A stretch of DNA of 64,000 bases from IMG/VR virus record IMGVR_UViG_3300030118_004474, positions 24,182 to 88,181 of that record. The stretch is one strand, 5' to 3'. The first letter of the stretch is position 1. The number at the start of each line of letters is the position of its first letter. The position numbers were made by a program, and so were the translations under genes. This document shows, piece by piece, positions 897-11,266 of this stretch. The notes under the pieces were generated by a model. It saw nothing but the letters and a program-made list of their open reading frames with translations, did not search any database and was not told the origin of the DNA. Source of the stretch: a virus.

Positions 897-1309
897 TTTT
901 TAAACTCTCCTTTGTTATAAAAAGTTTGGATGCCTGAACTGGTTAAGTTCCAAGCAACCCATAATTGTCCTGTGCCGTAGGATATTTCCATACAAGCCCA
1001 GTCCTTCTTTACAGTTCCTAAATTCTTTACATCTACCATATTTCCATATATCATTCTATACAACATACTAACATGATTAACGTTATCATGTAAATATTGT
1101 ATTACTAAATGTTCTTGAACATTTACCCATTCCTCTTCTGAGTAATATTCTCCCGTCCCCTTACAGATTTTACATTTATTCCCATCACAAATGGGACAAA
1201 CATACCTTCTATCATAGACGGGAAACCTTACTACCTTTTTTAATTCAGCGGGAATTTGTCTGTCTCTACGATTTTCGTCATCACTTCTCTTCCCTGTTTT
1301 TTCTCCCAT
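884..1309 (-). CDS. DnaJ-type zinc-finger motif protein, 141 residues
   Basis: The start at MGEKTGKRSDDENR is preceded by GAGGTTG and lies 70 bases inside the end of the JAMM gene. Residues about 40-55 hold two CxxCxG-like clusters (CPICDG and CKICKGTG), the motif of the DnaJ cysteine-rich zinc centre, here as two copies rather than four. The rest has aromatic and hydrophobic stretches that suggest a small globular domain. No J-domain is present, so it is not a DnaJ. Function unknown; a zinc-stabilised adaptor is plausible. Confidence 0.65.
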   Translation of the reverse strand: MGEKTGKRSDDENRRDRQIPAELKKVVRFPVYDRRYVCPICDGNKCKICKGTGEYYSEEEWVNVQEHLVIQYLHDNVNHVSMLYRMIYGNMVDVKNLGTVKKDWACMEISYGTGQLWVAWNLTSSGIQTFYNKGEFKKWLV

Positions 1310-1782
1310 ATCAACCTCTCCTCTCCACCTAGAACAATTGCTTGGTTTAGAATAGGTCGCCATGTTCTCAACGTTCTCCTATCGGTTCCCGACCAAAAGG
1401 CAACTCCAAACGGGTGGGTATGAATCCAAGACTTTAGGGGAAGTTTCATTCCTGAAACCATAACTCCTCCGTAGTCAACCAGTCCGGGCGAACCGGAATT
1501 CATAAACAGTCTATCATTAGCGTCAACAATAACGCTTACTTCTAAACCACCTAACACTTCTACCGAGGCCTCCCAAATTTTATCTAAGAATAAAGGGCTT
1601 CCTGCGTCAGGCATTCCACTAAAAAGCAGATGCCGCCAAGCATCATGTATAGGTTTCTGCCAAACATCGGCAGGAACATCAGTCCATCGTTCATTCAAAT
1701 TACCTACGGGTTCCTTGATATTATTTCCAAGGAAAAACCCGTGGTAGTCGTTCTCAATTTTTTCTTCCATTTTTTCATTCAT
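1240..1782 (-). CDS. JAMM/MPN+ metalloprotease-like protein
   Basis: The 180-residue product carries the JAMM zinc motif HxHPx(6)SxxD at residues 121-134 (His121, His123, Ser131, Asp134) after a hydrophobic strand, with Glu75 in a VEVLGG context as the likely catalytic acid. JAMM enzymes cleave isopeptide bonds or trim the C-terminus of ubiquitin-like proteins. An E1/ThiF gene lies about 1 kb upstream in the same operon, and a 68-residue protein with a near-terminal Gly-Gly is encoded at 9554-9760. I chose the ATG that overlaps the previous stop (ATGA) over a farther upstream frame lacking a ribosome site. The proteolytic role on the viral ubiquitin-like protein is inferred. Confidence 0.75.
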   Translation of the reverse strand: MNEKMEEKIENDYHGFFLGNNIKEPVGNLNERWTDVPADVWQKPIHDAWRHLLFSGMPDAGSPLFLDKIWEASVEVLGGLEVSVIVDANDRLFMNSGSPGLVDYGGVMVSGMKLPLKSWIHTHPFGVAFWSGTDRRTLRTWRPILNQAIVLGGEERLIWEKKQGREVMTKIVETDKFPLN

Positions 1783-1967
1783 TCTATCACTTCCATTTCT
1801 AATAGTCTTTTTGTTAAGTATTGACAATGTTCCGGCAAGGCGTGAACCTGTCCACTTACTCCATATCCGGCAACATAAATAGCGGGTTCTCCCTCAATTA
1901 TAGTCTGAAAACATAATCGGCAATAAGTCCGACCTGTTCCCATTTTAACACCAAATGCAACCGCCAT
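1779..1967 (-). CDS. Small zinc-finger protein, 62 residues
   Basis: Starts at an ATG with GGAGGAC eight bases upstream; the preceding in-frame TTG is less likely. It has a CxxC pair (CRLC) and, about 30 residues later, a His/Cys pair (HALPEHC), consistent with one zinc site of the LIM or treble-clef kind. It overlaps the JAMM gene by ATGA. Likely a protein- or nucleic-acid-binding module; no family assigned. Confidence 0.6.
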   Translation of the reverse strand: MAVAFGVKMGTGRTYCRLCFQTIIEGEPAIYVAGYGVSGQVHALPEHCQYLTKRLLEMEVIE

Positions 1968-1983
1968 CAAACAGTCCTCCTGT

Positions 1984-2118
1984 TCATTCCTCTTCCCCCA
2001 AAATTTTTTCTTCTACTTCCTTTTGTGTTTTCAAATCATTTAGAAGAAACTTGATTTTTCCCTTCCAAGTCTTTCTTTCTTCTTCTGCCATTTCTTCAAT
2101 GTATTTCCCTTTCTTCAT
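1984..2118 (-). CDS. Small charged helical protein, 44 residues
   Basis: A 45-codon frame starting MKKGKYIEEMAEEERKTWK and ending GEEE, between the 78-residue gene and the zinc-finger gene, without large gaps. It reads as a single amphipathic, highly charged helix. The evidence for a real gene is its position in a chain of close genes. Confidence 0.5.
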   Translation of the reverse strand: MKKGKYIEEMAEEERKTWKGKIKFLLNDLKTQKEVEEKILGEEE

Positions 2119-2123
2119 TTTTC

Positions 2124-2360
2124 TCACTCCAATGGATGGTCAATGTCTTTATCTCCAAGCACCCAACGAAGAGCCTTAACCACGCCCTCCAATGCTTTGT
2201 AGTTCCTCATGTGGTACATCCGTTTCTTCTTCGGCCCGTCCAACATGGACATGTAGTGTGAGTTCTGTTTGCGCTCGGCCTTATCCAGCATGGTTTCAAT
2301 ATCATGCCAAGTTTTATCATAAGCGAAGTGTTCGCTGTCTTGGTGGTCGCTCATTGTCAT
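2124..2360 (-). CDS. Unrecognised 78-residue protein
   Basis: Starts at the first of two nearby ATGs, with GGAGG seven bases upstream. It is rich in His, Lys and Met (HYMSMLDGPKKKRMYHMRN) in the middle and ends in a helix. The ATG overlaps the TGA of the 29-residue frame upstream. No family recognised. Confidence 0.6.
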   Translation of the reverse strand: MTMSDHQDSEHFAYDKTWHDIETMLDKAERKQNSHYMSMLDGPKKKRMYHMRNYKALEGVVKALRWVLGDKDIDHPLE

Positions 2361-2446
2361 TCTTCTTCCTCCTTTAAAATGGATGGGTATTCATCGGTAT
2401 ATATCAACCTATCAGCAATCCATTGTATGATTTGTTTCCTGTTCAT
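2357..2446 (-). CDS. Very small protein, 29 residues
   Basis: A 30-codon frame (starts MNRKQIIQWIADRL) joined by ATGA overlaps on both sides to its neighbours. The acidic end (LKEEEE) is encoded by the ribosome binding site of the next gene. It may be a true micro-protein or mainly a coupling element. Confidence 0.45.
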   Translation of the reverse strand: MNRKQIIQWIADRLIYTDEYPSILKEEEE

Positions 2447-2601
2447 GCGCTCCACCCATTTACAATCTCGGCGTGTTCTTCGCAACAAGCAAAACCTTCG
2501 GGGATTTCAATACCGTGAGTCATGCAGGATGGTTCACCACACACATCACAGGTGATATAGTAGGGAGACTCAAGTTCAATTTTACAGGTCTTACACTTCA
2601 T
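2443..2601 (-). CDS. Cysteine-rich small zinc protein, 52 residues
   Basis: The sequence has paired cysteines CKTC, CDVCGEPSC, a lone His and then CCEEH, enough for two zinc sites as in small RING- or treble-clef-like modules. The start ATG and the stop both form ATGA overlaps with neighbours. Fold type inferred from Cys/His spacing only. Confidence 0.6.
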   Translation of the reverse strand: MKCKTCKIELESPYYITCDVCGEPSCMTHGIEIPEGFACCEEHAEIVNGWSA

Positions 2602-2699
2602 TCTTCTTCCCCCGAATAATCTTTTAATACCCTATGTATAATCTCGGACATAAGCCCTATAAACACAATCATAACCGTTAGTGTAATTACAGGGTTCAT
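2598..2699 (-). CDS. Small single-span membrane protein, 33 residues
   Basis: Nearly half of the protein is a hydrophobic segment (VITLTVMIVFIGLM) followed by a charged tail. It is directly downstream of another small membrane protein and both are coupled by ATGA overlaps, so the pair may act together in the host membrane. Function unknown. Confidence 0.55.
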   Translation of the reverse strand: MNPVITLTVMIVFIGLMSEIIHRVLKDYSGEEE

Positions 2700-2821
2700 T
2701 CTTCTTCACCTAATCCTCTGAATCGTCGCCATAGTGCATATAGATACCTCCCTGCAACTGCTAGCACTAATAAGTCTAAAAGGATTCCTACTGTAATAAA
2801 TATCATCATTTCTGTTTCCAT
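2696..2821 (-). CDS. Small single-span membrane protein, 41 residues
   Basis: Residues 5-23 form one hydrophobic span (MMIFITVGILLDLLVLAVA), followed by a basic segment (RYLYALWRRFRG), so the positive-inside rule would put the C-terminus in the cytoplasm. Ends in EEE encoded by the next ribosome site. It lies between the E1 gene and the second membrane micro-protein. Confidence 0.6.
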   Translation of the reverse strand: METEMMIFITVGILLDLLVLAVAGRYLYALWRRFRGLGEEE

Positions 2822-2830
2822 GTCTTCACC

Positions 2831-3382
2831 TCAAATACTCAACTGAATATGTTTCTTGACATCTTCACCAGCAAACCAACGCTGAATCCATTGTGCTCCC
2901 ATACCAGCAATAGCAACGTGGGTAAAGTGAATATCCCCTGCGGAACCATCCCAACTATCACCTTGGCAACTAAACGAACCATCAGGTCCAACATTCAACA
3001 TAGAAAGAATGTTTGGGTCTTCTTCGTAAGAAACCAATAACCCGTTTCTTCCCTGTGCTCTTAGGTCAAGCCAAGACATGCCCGTTTTGTAAAGCATCTG
3101 TCGCACAGCCAAATTATCTGCACAACAAACCACTAGGTCGTAGTTTGAAATTTGATTCTGCGTTAGCACCTTGTAAGGTTGTGGGATAACATAGGGCCAA
3201 CCTGCAAAGCAAGAAACCTTGTGTTTATCCAGCATACTGTCAGTAAAATTTTGATAGGTCAAATTCTTTTGTTCTACGGTGTCCGGGTCAAAGACCGTTA
3301 ACTCATAGATACCAGTTCTAGCCAAACAAGGAATCAAATGTGAACCTATTCCTCCTGCTCCAATTATCAATACTTTTCTCAT
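2831..3382 (-). CDS. E1/ThiF-family adenylating enzyme
   Basis: Residues 8-13 are the Rossmann glycine loop GAGGIG. The segment from residue 32, DPDTVEQKNLTYQNF, matches the ThiF/MoeB/E1 signature D-x-D-x-V-x-x-x-N-L, followed by Lys55 and VVCCADNLAVRQ, the usual acidic-Asn-Arg pattern. Cys139 lies where a thioester cysteine could sit. The protein is short (183 residues, against roughly 240-350 for ThiF/MoeB), a minimal adenylation domain. Such enzymes activate the C-terminal Gly of ubiquitin-like proteins with ATP. The JAMM gene in the same operon and the Gly-Gly protein at 9554-9760 make a modification or sulfur-transfer system likely. ATGA overlap with the TFB-like gene; GGAGG precedes the start. 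Confidence 0.8.
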   Translation of the reverse strand: MRKVLIIGAGGIGSHLIPCLARTGIYELTVFDPDTVEQKNLTYQNFTDSMLDKHKVSCFAGWPYVIPQPYKVLTQNQISNYDLVVCCADNLAVRQMLYKTGMSWLDLRAQGRNGLLVSYEEDPNILSMLNVGPDGSFSCQGDSWDGSAGDIHFTHVAIAGMGAQWIQRWFAGEDVKKHIQLSI

Positions 3383-4023
3383 ATTATTTCCTCCAATTTT
3401 TTATTATATTTTAGCACGGTTTGTCTGCTAATATAGAAAGCCCGTGCAACTTTCCTTAGCGATAAATTCGTCGTCCTATAAACACAAGCAGACAATATAT
3501 TCATGTTTATGTCAATTTTTTTAGATAACGCCCCTACAAAACTACCTATTGTTTTACATTCTTCTTCATCTAAATTAAGCGGTAGATTTCTTAGTAAGGC
3601 TTCCCATTCAGGCGGCCTATAAATTTCTGTTTCTTTTAGTCTCCCAAGTAGCGTCTTTACTGTTTTAGGGCGGACGCCCATATATGCACAATAATGTTTT
3701 AGTCTAGATACTTGGTTAGTATTACCCATGTATATGTGTAGGGATAAAACCGCTAGTGTATTTGAAGTATATCTGCTACTTCTGTATAGATTGATATAAC
3801 TACTTCGGTATATTCTTTTTACCGCCTCTATGTCTTCTACTCCGTATTCTCTACAAAGTATAACCAAGTCAACCATTTCTCTATCTACGGGTTTCTCACT
3901 TAAGGAAACCGAATATATTCTTGGAACCACGAACGAACCACACTCACGACATTTTATTGCCTGAGAGCCAGTCAATAACATTTTTTGTGGACGGTTTGAA
4001 GTTCTGCAAACTAAGCACTCCAT
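3379..4023 (-). CDS. TFB/TFIIB-like transcription initiation factor
   Basis: The 214 residues begin with a zinc ribbon (Cys3, Cys6, Cys25, Cys28). Two helical repeats follow, around residues 90-133 (AVLSLHIYMG to GRLKE) and 170-214 (NILSACVYRT to NKKLEEI), each ending in a helix-turn-helix like the cyclin folds of archaeal TFB (compare TVKTLLGRLKE and SRQTVLKYNKKLEE). TFB binds TBP-DNA and recruits RNA polymerase. It is shorter than the roughly 300-residue cellular protein, with a compressed linker. The start at MECLVC has GGAGG nine bases upstream and lies 80 bases inside the previous gene. It could redirect host polymerase to viral promoters. Confidence 0.72.
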   Translation of the reverse strand: MECLVCRTSNRPQKMLLTGSQAIKCRECGSFVVPRIYSVSLSEKPVDREMVDLVILCREYGVEDIEAVKRIYRSSYINLYRSSRYTSNTLAVLSLHIYMGNTNQVSRLKHYCAYMGVRPKTVKTLLGRLKETEIYRPPEWEALLRNLPLNLDEEECKTIGSFVGALSKKIDINMNILSACVYRTTNLSLRKVARAFYISRQTVLKYNKKLEEII

Positions 4024-5308
4024 CTTTGAAATCCTCCTCAAATCTTTTTTTACCAAAGTATTTATCATAACCTCTTAGGGTAGAAACACTATCAATGTTC
4101 TTTTTATCATTTATTAGAACCATCACCCTAGAGGCTATTTGGTCGCCAACACTAACCCGTGATTCGGTTTGGTCAATACAGATACTACCTAGACTACGAT
4201 ATAGGTTTTTACCGTCCGAATAAATTTGTGATGAAAAGTAATCTTCGGTATTATTGATTTGAATTCTATAAGTCTTAGACAACAACTTTTGCCAACTTTC
4301 AAACGATTCCTTATCCCCATGTTTTGCGAATACCTTTAACGCTGTTAGCATCTTTTCGTCATCTTTAGGAATGATGTGTTCTAAGCATATAGTCTGAACA
4401 TCTTGTCTTCCAGTCACAACATGTTTTCCTTTTTCATGTCTAGTTATCACCATCCAACATGCTCCCGGTCCACGAACATAAAGACCGTGAGAAGCACCGG
4501 GACGACCAGTATTGACTGTTAATTCGTGAACGTTAGGAAACGACTTGTGAAGTTTTTCTACAAGTTCCATGCTTCTTTTCGTCACTAAATTAGTAGACTT
4601 ATTTTGAATCATAAATGCTTCAATTATCTTTTCTTGAGAATCAGTTAAAAATTTACCCGTTGATTGATGATATAGGTTCTGAAAAGGTATTGCCGTGTAT
4701 TTGTTGTGAGAACCCTGACATGCTCTTATGAACATAACTGCTTGTTTAAAGGGCATTTCAAACCATATATCGGTATAGAGTTGAATCGCTACTGAATCTG
4801 GCCCAGTTCTCTCTAAATCCAACAGAGTCTCTACTCGCTCCTTTTTTGATGTAAAAAAGGTATATTTAATTTTATTAACCATCGCAGAAGTAATTTCCGT
4901 AGGGGTTTCCATAAAATTACACACATCGTCATCAATTTCTTCGCTATCTTTATACTTGGGCATCTTGTAAATGATAATTTGTAGTAGTCTTACCAAGTTT
5001 TTTAGAGAAATCTTATCCCCGTTAATAAAATATGAACGGCCCTTTTTTGCTATCCTAACATTTTTTGTTGATTCTAAATCACCCATAACACAAAAAGCAA
5101 GTTCACCGTGTAGGAATCCCTTGATTGTTCTAGTGAAACTTTTGTCGTCTAATGCTGAGGTATCAAAATTATTTCGTCTATATCTATATCTATATCCCCT
5201 ACTAGGGTTTGGGTTAACCCAACCATTTTTATTAGTAAATACTATTGGGTTTCCTACTCTTTGGCCTCTTCTTCCCCTAAAATGTATTGTAGTTTTTATT
5301 GGTGTCAT
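3944..5308 (-). CDS. Large unrecognised operon protein, 454 residues
   Basis: The start overlaps the preceding stop (ATGA). The N-terminus is strongly basic with a Tyr/Arg run (SRGYRYRYRRNN), suggesting nucleic-acid contact. Later stretches such as VNTGRPGASHGLYVRGPGACWMV are Gly-rich and well formed but match no motif I can name. No membrane segment. It lies directly upstream of the TFB-like gene. A replication or transcription role is possible only by position. Confidence 0.75.
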   Translation of the reverse strand: MTPIKTTIHFRGRRGQRVGNPIVFTNKNGWVNPNPSRGYRYRYRRNNFDTSALDDKSFTRTIKGFLHGELAFCVMGDLESTKNVRIAKKGRSYFINGDKISLKNLVRLLQIIIYKMPKYKDSEEIDDDVCNFMETPTEITSAMVNKIKYTFFTSKKERVETLLDLERTGPDSVAIQLYTDIWFEMPFKQAVMFIRACQGSHNKYTAIPFQNLYHQSTGKFLTDSQEKIIEAFMIQNKSTNLVTKRSMELVEKLHKSFPNVHELTVNTGRPGASHGLYVRGPGACWMVITRHEKGKHVVTGRQDVQTICLEHIIPKDDEKMLTALKVFAKHGDKESFESWQKLLSKTYRIQINNTEDYFSSQIYSDGKNLYRSLGSICIDQTESRVSVGDQIASRVMVLINDKKNIDSVSTLRGYDKYFGKKRFEEDFKDGVLSLQNFKPSTKNVIDWLSGNKMS

Positions 5309-5541
5309 TCATCCACCTCCGAGTAGTAGATTTGTTCAGAAAGGTAACCATCGCAAATCTGAGTAAGTTTCTCTTGAATCTGTTTAGCAATAGCAGGTAT
5401 AGTATTCCTGTGTAGGGCCAACCAAATTCTCTCTGTTTCATTCATTATGATTGTAATGCCGGTGCTACCCTTTTTAGTAATCACCATTGGTGGCATATCA
5501 TTATCACGAACTATTTTATATTCAATAGTTTTTTCTGTCAT
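5305..5541 (-). CDS. Unrecognised 78-residue protein
   Basis: Start at MTEKTIEYKIVRDND, preceded by AGGTGAAAG; an upstream GTG is less likely. Alternating hydrophobic residues (MVITKKGSTGITIIM) suggest a small beta hairpin followed by a helix. Coupled to the 454-residue gene by overlap. No family recognised. Confidence 0.6.
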   Translation of the reverse strand: MTEKTIEYKIVRDNDMPPMVITKKGSTGITIIMNETERIWLALHRNTIPAIAKQIQEKLTQICDGYLSEQIYYSEVDE

Positions 5542-5737
5542 TTCTTTCACCTAGTTTTTTCATATATTCTAGCGGGCTTTCCTTGAGGGTCTGCCTACTC
5601 ACCGTTACGTGAGGAAATTGCTCAAACAAATGCGGCAATACCTCAAATAGTTTATCTTCTATTTCATAATTTTTAGTCCACACAGAGCCATTGGCTTTAA
5701 AGACCGTCACTCTATATAAGATGTTTTCATTTTCCAT
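5522..5737 (-). CDS. Unrecognised 71-residue protein
   Basis: Reads as a small alpha/beta protein (ILYRVTVFKANGSVWTKNYEI, then a helix). It overlaps its upstream neighbour by 31 bases and its downstream neighbour by 20, typical of this operon. Function unknown. Confidence 0.6.
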   Translation of the reverse strand: MENENILYRVTVFKANGSVWTKNYEIEDKLFEVLPHLFEQFPHVTVSRQTLKESPLEYMKKLGERNDRKNY

Positions 5738-5961
5738 AATATCATTCCTCCTTTTTCTATTTTTTCATATTTTTTTTCTGTTTTAATTAAGCATCGGATT
5801 TGCATGGTGGTAGGAACGTTTGTTCTTTTACCTCCTCTATCCGAGCGATATTGTTCAAATTTTTCTCTGATGTTTTCTGCTGTTCGCTCCTTGCCATCAG
5901 CCATAATTCTGTCAATCACCCAAAAGACCTGCTTTCGGTGTCTTTTTCTTCTAGTGGTCAT
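5707..5961 (-). CDS. Winged-helix-like small protein, 84 residues
   Basis: A basic N-terminus (MTTRRKRHRKQ) precedes helix VFWVIDRIMADGKERTAENI, a second helix with NVPTTMQIRCLI in recognition-helix position, and a beta end (YEKIEKGGMILWKM), the order of a winged helix. Similar layouts occur at 7887-8183 and 10034-10261, so the operon may encode a small family. DNA binding is inferred. The ATG overlaps the stop of nrdJ. Confidence 0.6.
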   Translation of the reverse strand: MTTRRKRHRKQVFWVIDRIMADGKERTAENIREKFEQYRSDRGGKRTNVPTTMQIRCLIKTEKKYEKIEKGGMILWKMKTSYIE

Positions 5962-7835
5962 AGTTCACAAGCCCCACCAGCACAAGCCAATTCTCCTGTT
6001 AAGTCGGTATTGTCCTCACTCTCAAAGACTTGAGACAAATCAATATCCGATAGACATTGCTTCAATTCATTGTAGTGTTCCTCGTCAATTGTTTCAAATG
6101 GAGCCTGTTTGTAGGTTCCTCCATCGTAGGGCAGAACAGATAAACCGTTGTAAGCATGTCGGTTATCCCACATCCATTGGCCCACTTCTTCCCACTCTTC
6201 TTCTTTCAAAGAAACCGTGGCAGAAACATTGTGTGTGTTAATTCCATCATTGTGTCCTTCCTTAACCCAAGTCTTGCTAACCAAGGCAATACGATTTAAC
6301 ATTGACAAAGCAGACTCTCCACGAATAGTTGCTCCTTCGGGTGCGGCTTGAGGCACGGAAAGAATGGCTGTATCGTGTGGTCGGAAATAACAATCCTCAA
6401 CCAATTCAGGCAAGTTATTCAGCAGGTAAGGATAAATTGCTTCGTCCTTTCCAACCCGTAGGCGGCGAATGTAATACTTATCGTGCCACGAATGAATACC
6501 ACTAGAAGTTCCCAGCACTAGGGAAGTAGTCCCAGCAGGTTTCACACAGGTTAACCTAGCCGCCTTATTTATTTTGAAATTACCAGCCCAATAAGCATTA
6601 ACTTTACGCACAATATCTGCGGCCTTTCTCAAGTTAATATCCGACAGAATTTTGTGTCCTTTTTCATCAGTAGGATTGCTTGCTATTCCAGTCATACTAA
6701 CCCCCAGTAAAGCATCCCTTTCGGTATTGCGTTTCCAAACCTCTCTTAGATAGTGAAAATCTGTATAGGTGGCCTGCAAGGTAGCAAGGAAAGTAGCCAA
6801 AGAGACACGCTCAAAAAAGTCTGCCGTATCAACTAGATTACTAGCATTAATCTCTACCAAATTACAGAACTGATACGGACGAAGTGCAATTTCACAGCAT
6901 GGATTTGTCCCCCAGTCTTTGTCGTTGCTAAAGTAAATGCCCGGTTCGCCGCTTCCACTAGCCTTAATACGTTCCCACAACGCATTGAAGAATTGTTGGT
7001 CTGCTCGGCTACGAATCAAAACTGCTGAGTTATTTGCTCGTCCTCTTTCGGGATGAGTTTCCCACCAATTACCCGACTTACAGGAAATCATGTCGTTGTC
7101 ATCTGCACTAAAAAGACTAATCAAAGCCGCACGACGAATTCCACCAGCCAAAACCGCATCAGCAATAATACACATAATATCGTGAACTTGGATAGGTTTT
7201 AGTTGAGTATTTGTTTCGTGTTCTTTGAGGATATTTTCAACCTTTACTAAACATTCTCGTAGGGGAGCAGGACCCGGAGCCTTTCCACCGGAGGTGATTA
7301 GCGGGGTTCCTTTCTTACGAATATCTGAATAGTCAAAAATGGGTGTGCTTTTTGTTACACCAAAATAACTCTTCATCAGAACCTTAACTGCGTCAGCCCA
7401 ACCTTCTATTGAATCGCCAATAAGATACCTGCGAGTTCGGTTAGGGTTTGGGTGCTGAACTTCCGGAAGCATTTCAATATGGTGTCGCTGAACTGAATAT
7501 CCAACACCAGTTCCACCCAACAAAAGAAACATTGATTCACTAAATGCGTCAATGTGCTCAATTGGTAGATAAGCGCAGTTGTAGATTCGGTTAGGACTAG
7601 TTTCAATTGGCTTTCCGGCAAATTGCATTGACCTCATAGATGGTAAGATTTTCTTACTCCTTACCATTTCGTAGACATCTCTAATAGTCTCCTCCCATTT
7701 AGGGAACTTTTTGATGTGCATTTGCATGTTTCGCTCGCACAATTCTTCCCATGTTTCTCTTCTCATTTCGTCTATTTTATACTTAGCATACTTCATATGC
7801 ACAGTAATGTTGCTTAAAATCTCTTTTTCATTCAT
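5958..7835 (-). CDS. nrdJ: Adenosylcobalamin-dependent ribonucleotide reductase (class II)
   Basis: This 625-residue enzyme converts ribonucleotides to deoxyribonucleotides using coenzyme B12 and no oxygen. It has the class II signatures: RIYNCAYLP with Cys87, the loop LLLGGTGVGYSVQ, the active-site block NPCCEIALRPYQFCNLVEIN with Cys313/314, Glu315 and Cys324, and a C-terminal redox pair Cys618/Cys623 (CAGGACEL). Length and motifs fit the monomeric RTPR-like form. GGAGGGG precedes the ATG, and a TATA-like ATTTATAAAC sits about 48 bases upstream. The gene supplies precursors for viral replication and needs cobalamin from the host or seawater. Confidence 0.95.
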   Translation of the reverse strand: MNEKEILSNITVHMKYAKYKIDEMRRETWEELCERNMQMHIKKFPKWEETIRDVYEMVRSKKILPSMRSMQFAGKPIETSPNRIYNCAYLPIEHIDAFSESMFLLLGGTGVGYSVQRHHIEMLPEVQHPNPNRTRRYLIGDSIEGWADAVKVLMKSYFGVTKSTPIFDYSDIRKKGTPLITSGGKAPGPAPLRECLVKVENILKEHETNTQLKPIQVHDIMCIIADAVLAGGIRRAALISLFSADDNDMISCKSGNWWETHPERGRANNSAVLIRSRADQQFFNALWERIKASGSGEPGIYFSNDKDWGTNPCCEIALRPYQFCNLVEINASNLVDTADFFERVSLATFLATLQATYTDFHYLREVWKRNTERDALLGVSMTGIASNPTDEKGHKILSDINLRKAADIVRKVNAYWAGNFKINKAARLTCVKPAGTTSLVLGTSSGIHSWHDKYYIRRLRVGKDEAIYPYLLNNLPELVEDCYFRPHDTAILSVPQAAPEGATIRGESALSMLNRIALVSKTWVKEGHNDGINTHNVSATVSLKEEEWEEVGQWMWDNRHAYNGLSVLPYDGGTYKQAPFETIDEEHYNELKQCLSDIDLSQVFESEDNTDLTGELACAGGACEL

Positions 7836-7877
7836 TCATTTTCCCCTCCTTGGGTAGTTGGAAGTAGTAAATAGATT

Positions 7878-7887
7878 GTTTATAAAT
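7878..7887 (-). promoter_or_regulatory. TATA-like element before nrdJ
   Basis: ATTTATAAAC on the minus strand, centred 48 bases before the nrdJ ATG. With initiation about 25 bases downstream, the leader would be about 20 bases and would include the GGAGGGG ribosome site. It touches the stop codon of the preceding gene. Confidence 0.4.
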
Positions 7888-8183
7888 CATTCTACTAGCC
7901 TCCAAGTTGTTTCTTTTTTGTTCTTTCCGTCTTCGGTAAAATACCTTTCTTCTATTTTTTCAAAACTTTCGTGGTAGCCCAGAACATTTGCTAACGCTCC
8001 GGATGTAATACCATACCGAGTGTTGGAGTTTAACCAGTCTCTAATCTGAAGAAAAGATGCCTCGTTATCTTCACAACTCTTTAGATATTTTTTAATCCAC
8101 CTTATGTTATTGAAATGTTTATTATTTCCGACCCTTGGGGGTCCTCTGTTTTCAAATTTTATACTTTGATTATGTGTTCCCAT
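7887..8183 (-). CDS. Winged-helix-like protein, 98 residues
   Basis: Start at MGTHNQSIKFENRG, with GTGAT upstream; the earlier GTG is less likely. Helices NNIRWIKKYLKSC and SFLQIRDWLNS, then GITSGALANVLGYHE and a closing strand TWRLVE, resemble a winged-helix domain. It lies between the tRNA genes and nrdJ. DNA-binding role inferred. Confidence 0.6.
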   Translation of the reverse strand: MGTHNQSIKFENRGPPRVGNNKHFNNIRWIKKYLKSCEDNEASFLQIRDWLNSNTRYGITSGALANVLGYHESFEKIEERYFTEDGKNKKETTWRLVE

Positions 8184-8213
8184 ATTTATCACTTCTTTTT
8201 ATTATTGAGTAGG

Positions 8214-8297
8214 TGCTGGGGGCAGGATTTGAACCTGCGAACCTTTGAGGACAGGAGTTTAAGCCCTGCGCTTTTAACCATACTCAGCCACCCCAGC
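8214..8297 (-). tRNA. tRNA-Leu (TAA)
   Basis: An 84-base type II tRNA read from the minus strand: acceptor GCTGGGG pairs with CCCCAGC plus discriminator A, anticodon loop CTTAAAC gives anticodon TAA, a long variable arm follows, and the T-arm holds GGTTCAAATCC. It reads UUA, a very common codon in the large rightward genes. CCA is not encoded. It follows the Arg tRNA by six bases, so both are probably one transcript. Confidence 0.93.
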
Positions 8298-8303
8298 GTT
8301 TAA

Positions 8304-8375
8304 CGGGCGTAGGAGGAATTGAACCCCCATCTCCGGCTTAGAAGGCCGGAATGCTATCCTTTACACCATACGCCC
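8304..8375 (-). tRNA. tRNA-Arg (TCT)
   Basis: A 72-base cloverleaf on the minus strand: acceptor GGGCGTA pairs with TACGCCC plus discriminator G, anticodon stem CCGGC/GCCGG encloses loop CTTCTAA, anticodon TCT, and the T-arm holds GGTTCAATTCC. It reads AGA, the dominant Arg codon of the large unknown rightward genes. CCA is not encoded. Confidence 0.93.
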
Positions 8376-8382
8376 TTAGAAT

Positions 8383-8625
8383 TTAATGTCCCTTACAATT
8401 GGGACAACAATCATTGTCATCTACTATTTTTTGTGGCGGTTTGCCTACAAATAGTCTCCAACATCCAAAGTCCATTCGTTGAAAGTTTTTACAACCTCCT
8501 CCGTTTTCGCATTGGTATCTAAAAAATGGAGCATCAGGCTTGCTACATGCACACAATTGGCGTTCGCACGAAGCCCAAGGTTCCATTAATATTAATTCTT
8601 CTTCATTACTAAATCTTCTTTTCAT
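8383..8625 (-). CDS. Cysteine-rich zinc protein, 80 residues
   Basis: Start at MKRRFSNEEELILM, where GGAGG of the upstream gene's end serves as ribosome site (TAATG overlap). Ten cysteines occur in pairs or near pairs (CERQLCAC, CENGGGC, CCPNC), enough for two zinc sites. The frame ends seven bases before the Arg tRNA. No family recognised. Confidence 0.6.
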   Translation of the reverse strand: MKRRFSNEEELILMEPWASCERQLCACSKPDAPFFRYQCENGGGCKNFQRMDFGCWRLFVGKPPQKIVDDNDCCPNCKGH

Positions 8626-8825
8626 TATTCTTCCTCCAACATATCTATCCATTCGTCTTTTATTTTCCATTTTACATAACTTACTTTATCTATTTTTATT
8701 CTATCTAAGTGGGCGTCAACCTCTATGTTTCCACACCCACAAATTGTGAAATATTTATACTTGTTTTTTACAAGCACATTTTTTTCGCATATTTTACAAT
8801 GCAATAATACGTCAATTTTAGGCAT
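8625..8825 (-). CDS. Small zinc-ribbon protein, 66 residues
   Basis: Start at MPKIDVLLHCKICEKN. The pairs CKIC and CGCG, 18 residues apart, form a zinc-ribbon pattern, followed by beta and helical segments. The start lies inside the end of the preceding gene with GGAAGAG upstream. Function unknown. Confidence 0.6.
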   Translation of the reverse strand: MPKIDVLLHCKICEKNVLVKNKYKYFTICGCGNIEVDAHLDRIKIDKVSYVKWKIKDEWIDMLEEE

Positions 8826-9171
8826 TTTCCCACTCTTCCCAAGTTTGAGACGAATTATCAATCTCCGCCGTATCTGAAAGCCCTGCTTCATCGTCTTGAT
8901 ATTTTTCGTCGGGTTTCATACTTATCCAACCTCTATCTAGGGCCATTGTTATCAACTTTTCCGGTATTTCTTTACCATTATTGCTGAGAAAATCACACAA
9001 CACTAACCATTCTTCTGCCGATGCAGAGTATATTTCGTCGTGTAAATAAAACCCTTCAATTATACCATCTACTTTGATGGTCTTTTTTATTTTCTTTTGG
9101 TTATAGTAGTCCCTACGGTATTCTAATATTGCTCTGGGTGTTTCAATTAACATCTTTAGTAGCCACAGCAT
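8818..9171 (-). CDS. Unrecognised 117-residue protein
   Basis: GGAGG precedes this ATG; a second ATG 18 bases on (MLIETPRAIL) is an alternative start. Mainly helical with a conserved-looking segment HDEIYSASAEEWLVLCDFL and an acidic C-terminus ending TWEEWENA. Overlaps both neighbours. Confidence 0.6.
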   Translation of the reverse strand: MLWLLKMLIETPRAILEYRRDYYNQKKIKKTIKVDGIIEGFYLHDEIYSASAEEWLVLCDFLSNNGKEIPEKLITMALDRGWISMKPDEKYQDDEAGLSDTAEIDNSSQTWEEWENA

Positions 9172-9463
9172 TTTTAGAAGCCTCCGCCTTTAATTTATTA
9201 TAGTTCTTTAAATTTTGATTATATTTGAATTCAAAATAATTTACTGTTCCGTTCAAGTGACTTCTAATTGTTGCTAAGTCTCTTTTACCTAGAGTATTAA
9301 ACAGTTGTTTATCTAATTTATGATAACCGCTTTTGTTATGAAGCGACCAAATATAGGTAATAACAGTACCTTTAGGTCTGTTCTTTCTATTTGGTTCCCT
9401 GTAAGTTAGATATATTTCTTCTTCTAACATATATTCCGAAATTTGTTTTTTTGTCCATCTCAT
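9143..9463 (-). CDS. Unrecognised basic protein, 106 residues
   Basis: Start at MRWTKKQISEYMLEEE, preceded by AGGTGATATT; an upstream frame extension lacks a ribosome site. The protein is basic with mixed strands and helices (KGTVITYIWSLHNK, then LATIRSHLNGTVNYFEF), suggesting a nucleic-acid-binding fold. A hairpin lies just upstream at 9477-9495. Confidence 0.6.
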   Translation of the reverse strand: MRWTKKQISEYMLEEEIYLTYREPNRKNRPKGTVITYIWSLHNKSGYHKLDKQLFNTLGKRDLATIRSHLNGTVNYFEFKYNQNLKNYNKLKAEASKNAVATKDVN

Positions 9464-9476
9464 AATATCACCTTTT

Positions 9477-9495
9477 GGGGTTTTTACAGAACCCC
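9477..9495 (-). terminator. Hairpin after the ubiquitin-like gene
   Basis: GGGGTT and AACCCC flank a seven-base loop in the 90-base gap downstream of the 68-residue gene. It is followed on the minus strand by AAAGG rather than a T-run, so it may be a processing or attenuation hairpin and not a true archaeal terminator. Confidence 0.35.
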
Positions 9496-9553
9496 TTAAC
9501 TGGCACTTCTTTTTCTTCTTAGTGCGAGAATAGAACAACGAACTGATTAGTCC

Positions 9554-9760
9554 TCAGTTCTGGCCTCCCACAATCGCTTGTGTCAGGATAACAGTTTCAA
9601 TGCTTTCTAGTGGAATATTAGCCACATCAGCATGAGCAACCATTTCGCCATTGATGTAAGCCCAATGGGTTGGGTGATTGTAAATCTGTTCTACTGCTTC
9701 TTCTGCGGACAAAACCAATTCGGTGTGTCCTGTGTCATTCAAAATCGTTACGTCTACCAT
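9554..9760 (-). CDS. Candidate ubiquitin-like protein with Gly-Gly near the C-terminus
   Basis: The 68 residues start with a hairpin (VDVTILNDTGHTELVLS), then a helix (AEEAVEQIY), then strands WAYINGE and a final strand ETVILTQAIVGG followed by Gln-Asn. The order and length fit a beta-grasp fold and resemble PRTRC-type protein C, and the Gly65-Gly66 ending exposes the usual conjugation site after removal of two residues. An E1/ThiF gene and a JAMM protease lie downstream in the operon. Fold and function are inferred; a plain small beta-grasp protein with no conjugation role remains possible. GAGGAAT precedes the ATG. Confidence 0.5.
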   Translation of the reverse strand: MVDVTILNDTGHTELVLSAEEAVEQIYNHPTHWAYINGEMVAHADVANIPLESIETVILTQAIVGGQN

Positions 9761-10566: not shown

Positions 10567-10755
10567 TCATTCAGTCCTCCAAAAAATAATTTCAATAACA
10601 CTAGTTGTCTCCAATGCTGATGGTTGTATTATTTCAAGAGTGAACCAACTCATTGTTTCGGTTTTGACATATTTACCAGTAGGGTAATCTTTGCCTAATC
10701 TAGTGTATTCCTTCTCATTAACATATACGTTATGTGTTGTTTTCCCATGCTTCAT
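10567..10755 (-). CDS. Unrecognised 62-residue protein
   Basis: Start at MKHGKTTHNVYVNEKE, overlapping the previous stop (ATGA), with GGAGG upstream. Likely a small beta protein: the end (FTLEIIQPSALETTSVIEIIFW) alternates hydrophobic residues. Confidence 0.55.
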   Translation of the reverse strand: MKHGKTTHNVYVNEKEYTRLGKDYPTGKYVKTETMSWFTLEIIQPSALETTSVIEIIFWRTE

Positions 10756-11240
10756 AGATATTCCTCCAACCATTGAGGGGCGGTCCCTTTTGTGTATTTA
10801 GCAAAACGAGCCTTTTCATTTATGTAATAATTCCGATATGCTTCTATTGGGTCTTTACATTTATACTCGTCAGGCATACATTGAGGTGGAGGGTAAAACT
10901 CCCCACCTTTAACGGGACTTTCTTTCAATAGTTCTAGTAATTCACTAGAAGCATGGACTTTATTATACCTTCGGCTATACTCGTTTAACATAGCAACCAA
11001 AAGGTCGTAGTGCCATAAGTAGTTCCCTTCTGTTTGCATAGTCCAAACAGTTGAAGGATGACCAACATGCACGGGTTTGTAAATATTCTTTAAAACATTC
11101 TTTGACTCTTTAAATGAGGTTTTTGACCACCAAGCAGTAGACAGCATTTGTGCTGATTCCAAGGGCATTTTTACAATGTGCTTATCACACAGTTGTTTTG
11201 CTATTTCTGTTGGGTCTTTTGATAGATAAAATATATTCAT
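10752..11240 (-). CDS. Conserved MNIFYL-type viral protein, 162 residues
   Basis: Starts MNIFYLSKDPTEIAKQLCDK, then HIVKMPLESAQMLSTAWW. I know this opening from many marine phage genomes, where the family has no assigned function. It is the first gene of the leftward operon, with a TATA box 32 bases before the ATG, so the message is leaderless or nearly so; a farther ATG five codons upstream lacks support. Being first suggests early expression. Confidence 0.8.
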   Translation of the reverse strand: MNIFYLSKDPTEIAKQLCDKHIVKMPLESAQMLSTAWWSKTSFKESKNVLKNIYKPVHVGHPSTVWTMQTEGNYLWHYDLLVAMLNEYSRRYNKVHASSELLELLKESPVKGGEFYPPPQCMPDEYKCKDPIEAYRNYYINEKARFAKYTKGTAPQWLEEYL

Positions 11241-11266
11241 TCTTCCACATTCCATTTATTGTTTTT

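Follow-up and report, generated by a model that had tools for sequence, protein, structure and literature searches.

Ubiquitin-like conjugation cascades of prokaryotes are known from a few archaea, from plasmids and from antiviral defence systems. One example is the PRTRC cassette of plasmids (group 6d of Iyer 2006), in which the ubiquitin-like PRTRC-C, the Prok-E2_D protein PRTRC-B, a PRTRC ThiF and a JAB are encoded together. For archaeal viruses, the RaFAH study of 2021 listed MoeB/ThiF among the most prevalent auxiliary genes and suggested a link to ubiquitination (PMC8276007); the passages of that paper on these genes do not mention a ubiquitin-like protein (Ubl), an E2-like protein, a JAMM protease or a fixed synteny. 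In this work we analysed a window of 64,000 nucleotides of viral DNA (positions 24182-88181 of the 88,181-base record IMGVR_UViG_3300030118_004474), for which a possible cassette of a compact ThiF/E1, a JAMM-motif protein and a 68-residue beta-grasp-like protein with a Gly-Gly-Gln-Asn end had been proposed. All three open reading frames were recovered in the positions and on the strand given in that original prediction (Table 1), and the ThiF identity of the E1 and the HTHPx6SGTD motif of the JAMM were both borne out.

The locus is probably best explained as a complete, reversible ubiquitin-like conjugation cassette located in the early leftward gene block of a magrovirus-like genome. A scan based on the E1 yielded 80 loci, 79 of which had the JAMM motif downstream; the remaining locus (L054) ends 1.3 kb past the E1. 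Wherever the sequence upstream of the E1 exceeded about 5.1 kb, the Ubl was found. Scans from the Ubl side and from the JAMM side agreed with this result, and in the cases inspected parts were missing only near the ends of contigs or loci. All three genes were present in 174 loci, and in each of them the order was Ubl, E2-like, TFIIB-like transcription factor (TFB), E1 and JAMM on one strand. As the loci overlap between scans, they correspond to 106 distinct triples. Each of the four proteins had a median pairwise dN/dS within 0.16-0.21; together with the fixed order and strand, such low values argue that the arrangement is not due to chance. In an independent sample, with contigs chosen by their capsid protein, seven reached 87 kb or more, and six of these carried all three genes. 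In the seventh, the Ubl occupies the right end (86843-87040 of 87650) and a truncated JAMM the left, so that the E1 falls in the contig break; all seven thus fit the pattern. Relatives of the three genes thus co-occurred wherever the contig was long enough, which is the outcome that the proposal had depended on. The separation of the Ubl from the other genes by about 6 kb, earlier regarded as a weakness, no longer counts as one, since the gap is 2.3-7.0 kb and the order is the same in all relatives. We can therefore say with reasonable confidence that magroviruses carry a full Ubl-E2-E1-JAMM cassette, its E2 member being a predicted one, as a fixed part of their genomes.

Table 1. Members of the cassette and genes lying between them (window positions).
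Feature	Position	Strand	Remarks
Ubl, 68 residues	9554..9760	-	Gly65-Gly66 at 9563-9568; Gln-Asn tail at 9557-9562; ends AIVGG-QN
E2-like protein, 454 aa	3944..5308	-	predicted C-terminal UBC-like domain; Cys377 (4178-4180) in G-S-I-C-I-D
TFIIB-like transcription factor (TFB)	3379..4068	-	between E2-like and E1 genes
E1, compact ThiF-fold, 183 aa	2831..3382	-	Pfam ThiF 2.2e-17; candidate catalytic Cys139 (2966-2968) in SCQG
Small Cys/His zinc-finger protein, uncertain member of the set	2443..2601	-	between E1 and JAMM; CxxC..CxxC..CxxH
JAMM/MPN+ metalloprotease, 180 aa	1240..1782	-	E81 + HTHPx6SGTD (residues 121-134; 1381-1422)

The AlphaFold2 model of the Ubl (pLDDT 87) has the order strand-strand-helix-strand-strand-helix-strand, which is that of a beta-grasp, and the Foldseek and VIA lists for this model consisted mostly of ubiquitin, ThiS, MoaD, TtuB and SAMP2. 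The VIA Z scores were 4.4 for TtuB, 3.8 for ThiS, MoaD and the ubiquitin of C. subterraneum, and 3.7 for SAMP2, with Ubl matches ranging over 3.5-4.7; these values are modest because the protein is small. Protein L domains, which have the same arrangement, took three of the top four VIA rows. The fold of this protein had been set beforehand as a test of the proposal, and all three programs pointed to a beta-grasp. We found 46 distinct Ubl homologues; no Pfam or NCBIfam model covers them, and a PDB sequence search with their profile gave nothing useful. The Gly-Gly was present in 90/90 distinct C-terminal halves. The tail beyond it is not conserved: it measures 0-10 residues and comes in about 40 versions, and 12 distinct sequences stop exactly at Gly-Gly. 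An invariant Gly-Gly with variable tails is characteristic of a modifier that undergoes processing. By its predicted, not solved, fold the 68-residue protein is thus a ubiquitin-like beta-grasp modifier.

In the JAMM family the residues E81, H121, H123, S131 and D134 were invariant in 52 sequences, so that the full E...HxHPx6SxxD pattern is in place, and the spacing of the motif matches that of Rpn11. The family profile matched AMSH-type deubiquitinases (4.6e-5) and archaeal Rpn11 (0.01) in the PDB, and Prok-JAB was matched by 49 of the 52 members. It had been suggested that this enzyme trims the Gln-Asn from the Ubl. The JAMM is, however, retained in all 34 loci whose Ubl already ends at Gly-Gly; trimming may still take place where a tail exists, but it is not the sole task of the enzyme. 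The likelier conserved role, as judged from the sequences, would be the removal of the tag from its targets.

The E1 shows the ThiF adenylation fold with its expected residues, and in an alignment of 66 sequences GxGGIGS, D32/D34, K55 and D89-N90 were invariant. Its profile matched UBA5, the NEDD8 E1, Cap2, Uba4 and MoeB in the PDB. In hhalign the viral E1 aligned with PRTRC ThiF over the full length (prob 99.2); Cys139 was placed against the conserved SC of that family, and for this reason we regard it as the candidate catalytic cysteine. The NxxRQ motif has Tyr43 instead of Arg in 66/66 sequences. The same Tyr is present in E1 relatives from Methanoperedens and Pacearchaeota (L092-L094, about 30% identical), which indicates that these proteins form a distinct E1 branch.

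The distant relatives deserve separate mention. The two Methanoperedens E1s (L093:7998-8585 and L094:7980-8567) are compact and share the Tyr and SCQ motifs; they adjoin a 166-residue protein ending in KGKGG and a large upstream protein, and this neighbourhood is possibly another archaeal Ubl system. The Pacearchaeota protein (L092:3869-4432; 187 residues, 32% identity), encoded in a metagenome-assembled genome (MAG), belongs to the same branch and lies on a short contig. No Ubl or JAMM of the viral cassette family was found in the neighbourhoods of L092-L094. A Prok-E2_D scan of 60 Methanoperedens-class genomes gave no match, with the controls likewise silent. Matches to the E1 at 53-100% also occurred in bacterial MAGs: L089 (Altibacter MAG NZTP01000016), L090 and L091. 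We rejected these bacteria as hosts, as the contigs look viral and misbinned; in one of them the E1 is 100% identical.

According to the original prediction no E2-like enzyme was visible. This is probably wrong, since the product of the gene at 3944-5308 combines an invariant cysteine with a predicted UBC-like domain. The cysteine was conserved in 62/62 homologues, in the context G-x-I-C-I-D. The AlphaFold2 model of the homologue from L006 had a pLDDT of 87, and the near-top Foldseek rows comprised 6gvw_C (of the BRCA1-A complex), Ube2N, Ubc13, UBE2D2, UBE2S and UbcH7. For residues 238-371 of the same model, the VIA rows were nearly all E2s, and the alignments took in nearly all of the UBC domain, with Z of 4.3-5.8. 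In the model the cysteine lies after the last strand and before the next helix, as does the catalytic Cys of E2s, and this position agrees with the one expected after the fourth strand. No Pfam family matched the protein, and a PDB sequence search with its profile gave nothing useful. On the basis of the model, it is a good E2 candidate.

Several results weigh against a complete conjugation cascade. The VIA Z scores, at most 5.8 for the E2-like protein (below a decisive Z) and at most 4.7 for the Ubl, lie in a range that common arrangements can reach, and the E2-like model is that of the L006 homologue, which is only 24% identical to the copy in the window. The HPN motif is absent from the E2-like alignments, although the conserved His has been lost in other prokaryotic E2s as well, as reported by Iyer et al. 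(PMC1779556). A comparison of the E2-like profile with six PRTRC-B sequences was not significant (hhalign prob 0.2, E 0.3), and the Cys motifs that stand side by side in this local alignment count for nothing at such a probability. Because of the missing profile link and the missing HPN motif we use the label "E2-like" rather than E2. On the side of the E1, the Arg of NxxRQ is replaced, as described above, and the segment that precedes the Rossmann fold at the N-terminus is lacking; the chemistry of adenylation could therefore be altered. Finally, no E3 was identified. Just upstream of the Ubl, a subset of the genomes encodes a Cys-rich, RING-like zinc finger (L051:2819-3001, L061:5675-5845 and others). 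It was considered as an E3 and rejected, as its Cys/His pattern is not conserved, being present on the coding strand of 24/174 loci.

A first alternative is that conjugation proceeds without an E2, as in the SAMP system of Haloferax, and that the 3944-5308 product is a scaffold of the UEV/RWD type and not a catalytic E2. Archaeal sampylation is generally understood to require UbaA and the SAMPs only, as also described in PMC4895103; the best Foldseek row was the BRCA1-A chain 6gvw_C, the RWD proteins CENP-O/P appeared as well, and the HPN motif is missing. On the other hand, a scaffold would not explain a cysteine that is invariant in 62/62 sequences, within GxICxD, and is placed by the model between strand and helix where the E2 catalytic Cys lies. 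We consider this explanation unlikely, though it is the strongest of the competitors.

A somewhat less probable alternative is a sulfur-carrier pathway on the model of TtuB/TtuC, ThiS/ThiF and MoaD/MoeB, in which the E1 would convert the Ubl to a thiocarboxylate as sulfur donor for tRNA or cofactors of the virus or the host, with the JAMM serving only to mature the Ubl. The nearest true beta-grasp relatives of the Ubl in VIA include TtuB, ThiS and MoaD, the E1 has the ThiF fold, and two tRNA genes lie within the window. However, neither an ATP_bind_3 protein (of the TtuA/NcsA type) nor a rhodanese was found in eight magrovirus genomes in which the controls were detected, and this makes a sulfur-carrier role less likely, even if the host could supply the partner. 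Such a pathway also does not account for an E2-like gene in 174/174 loci or for a JAMM retained where no trimming is needed.

Still less probable is a role in counter-defence, where the cassette would compete with or strip host SAMP/Ubl tags, the JAMM acting in deconjugation and the Ubl as a decoy. Many JAMM de-SAMPylases are encoded by the Borg elements of archaea, and PMC12660748 proposes that they counter host tagging. A decoy, however, needs no E1 and E2-like protein under equal constraint, and such a role would be compatible with a conjugation cassette rather than exclusive of it. As to a relationship of the 68-residue protein to the T4 protease inhibitor PinA, weak Pfam Inhibitor_I24 matches in 24/46 members (best 1.4e-4) stand against single scores far under the curated cut-off (12.8 v 27), the beta-grasp prediction and the invariant terminal Gly-Gly, so that it can practically be set aside.

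If the preferred reading, a reversible conjugation cassette, is correct, the Ubl would be made as a precursor with 0-10 residues beyond Gly-Gly, as its sequences show, and the JAMM would trim it where needed. By homology, the E1 would then adenylate the C-terminal Gly and load the Ubl on Cys139; from there it would pass to Cys377 of the E2-like protein, as the predicted fold and the invariance of this residue imply, and would end up on lysines in proteins of the virus or the host. The JAMM may also detach the tag and so render the modification reversible. With regard to targets, PMC4895103 describes how SAMP tagging in Haloferax causes the TATA-binding protein TBP2 to be turned over. Since the viral TFB is fixed between the E2-like and E1 genes, host transcription factors are no more than a sensible first guess; the adjacency of the TFB weakly suggests that transcription factors could be early targets.

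The TFB homologue L006:7935-8819 matched the TFIIB zinc-binding domain (9.7e-9), and four Cys were invariant in 18 sequences of the family. The zinc finger between the E1 and JAMM genes gave a weak ZZ-type match (0.0096) and was found in the close relative L002 only, so it is not family-wide.

The leftward genes in positions 1-11.3 kb of the window are part of an early block, which elsewhere on the record includes a family B DNA polymerase and an ERCC4 nuclease match, as well as primase-like, PCNA-like, GroEL-like and GroES-like genes (the latter four named by eye). The virion genes are located in an opposed rightward block. The major capsid protein matched those of the Haloarcula tailed viruses HCTV-1/-5 and HVTV-1 (1e-30 to 6e-33), indicating kinship with haloviruses of the Druskaviridae type. 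In comparison with the profiles of the International Committee on Taxonomy of Viruses (ICTV), the record agrees with Magrovirales: an archaeal tailed virus of 85-110 kb with two opposed blocks and with TFB, GroEL/GroES, PolB, AEP primase, PCNA, RFC and ligase genes, some of them named by eye. ICTV describes such a gene set for the Aoguangviridae and for Magrovirales as an order, whose members are associated with Poseidoniales archaea. Judged by its gene set and capsid protein matches, the record is that of a magrovirus-like archaeal tailed virus.

Some further features of this genome were noticed. A pair of tRNA genes, Leu-taa and Arg-tct, is located at 8212-8375 in the early block, flanked by ribonucleotide reductase and the Ubl. 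The neighbouring gene at 10752-11255 is conserved in 53 loci and matched a pyrimidine-dimer glycosylase (4.2e-6) and phrog_624 (3e-51). More than 12 proteins of the late block open with the motif M-x-W-x-x-[IV]-[LV]-K, e.g. MSWENILK or MTWEDIVKK, at sites in window positions 16028-54334 (e.g. 18835, 21485, 22008, 48889, 51213, 51518, 51880, 52323 and 53146) and at L087:6232. By its look, this is a tag shared at the N-terminus, perhaps serving packaging or assembly.

All in all, it is probable that magrovirus-like viruses mark proteins with a "ubiquitin" of their own while they infect. Every part belongs to the virus and, among the genomes seen, none is ever lost; protein tagging is therefore likely a central step of infection. 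It is quite possible, short of being probable, that an abundant lineage of archaeal viruses runs its own complete E1-E2-JAMM Ubl pathway, with an otherwise unknown compact E1/E2 family, and reprograms its host by this means, for instance with transcription factors as the tagged proteins or with host proteins directed to the proteasome. If so, this would be, to our knowledge, the first full Ubl cascade to belong to the core genes of a prokaryotic virus. The viruses concerned form a very common ocean group, among the commonest marine archaeal viruses, and a minimal cascade of four proteins could be reconstituted in vitro and is relevant to how E1-E2 pairs arose. Our literature search found no description of the full cassette and no link between magroviruses and ubiquitin or ThiF, although an earlier mention in Philosof 2017 or Prabhu 2025 is possible.

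Among the known systems, Bil and type II CBASS have an E1, E2 and JAB, plus a Ubl in Bil, and the viral E1 weakly matches the PADLOC E1-E2 models. The match covers only part of the E1 domain, with none for the viral Ubl, JAMM or E2-like protein; moreover, those systems serve bacteria as defence against viruses and have fused or other E2s, whereas here the virus owns the set. The SAMP system (SAMP1-3, UbaA and HvJAMM1) shares a Gly-Gly beta-grasp modifier, a ThiF-type E1, a JAMM and the archaeal setting. The viral set differs in always including an E2-like gene and in keeping its parts in one gene cluster, and its E1 scored 38.7 bits, far under the 450-bit cut-off of the UbaA equivalog. The operon of Caldiarchaeum (Ub, E1, E2, RING and Rpn11), as described in PMC5654768 and PMC6043591, is likewise an archaeal E1/E2/Ub/JAMM operon, and the viral JAMM has the Rpn11-type spacing; in the viral set no RING was found, the E1 is compact and the sequences are not close. 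The PRTRC cassette has four parts of the same kinds, and the viral E1 is homologous to its ThiF over the full length, including the SC motif. Despite this homology, the viral E1 scored 37.1 bits against the equivalog cut-off of 144.75; it is 60-90 residues shorter and has Tyr for Arg in NxxRQ. The viral Ubl matched no PRTRC-C model in NCBIfam or Pfam, the E2-like protein had no Pfam match to PRTRC-B/Prok-E2_D, and neither shows detectable sequence kinship. In the plasmids the E2 adjoins the JAB and ThiF, and the cluster includes ParB in place of a TFB; the viral cassette, in turn, belongs to the core genome of viruses of archaeal hosts. Membership in PRTRC, SAMP or Bil was rejected on the model scores and these systems were kept as likenesses only, as an E1 related to PRTRC, with other parts that fail the models, makes likeness of working a different matter from membership. 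By analogy, the cassette is thus one that would work like a PRTRC or Caldiarchaeum-type cascade, while being a member of neither.

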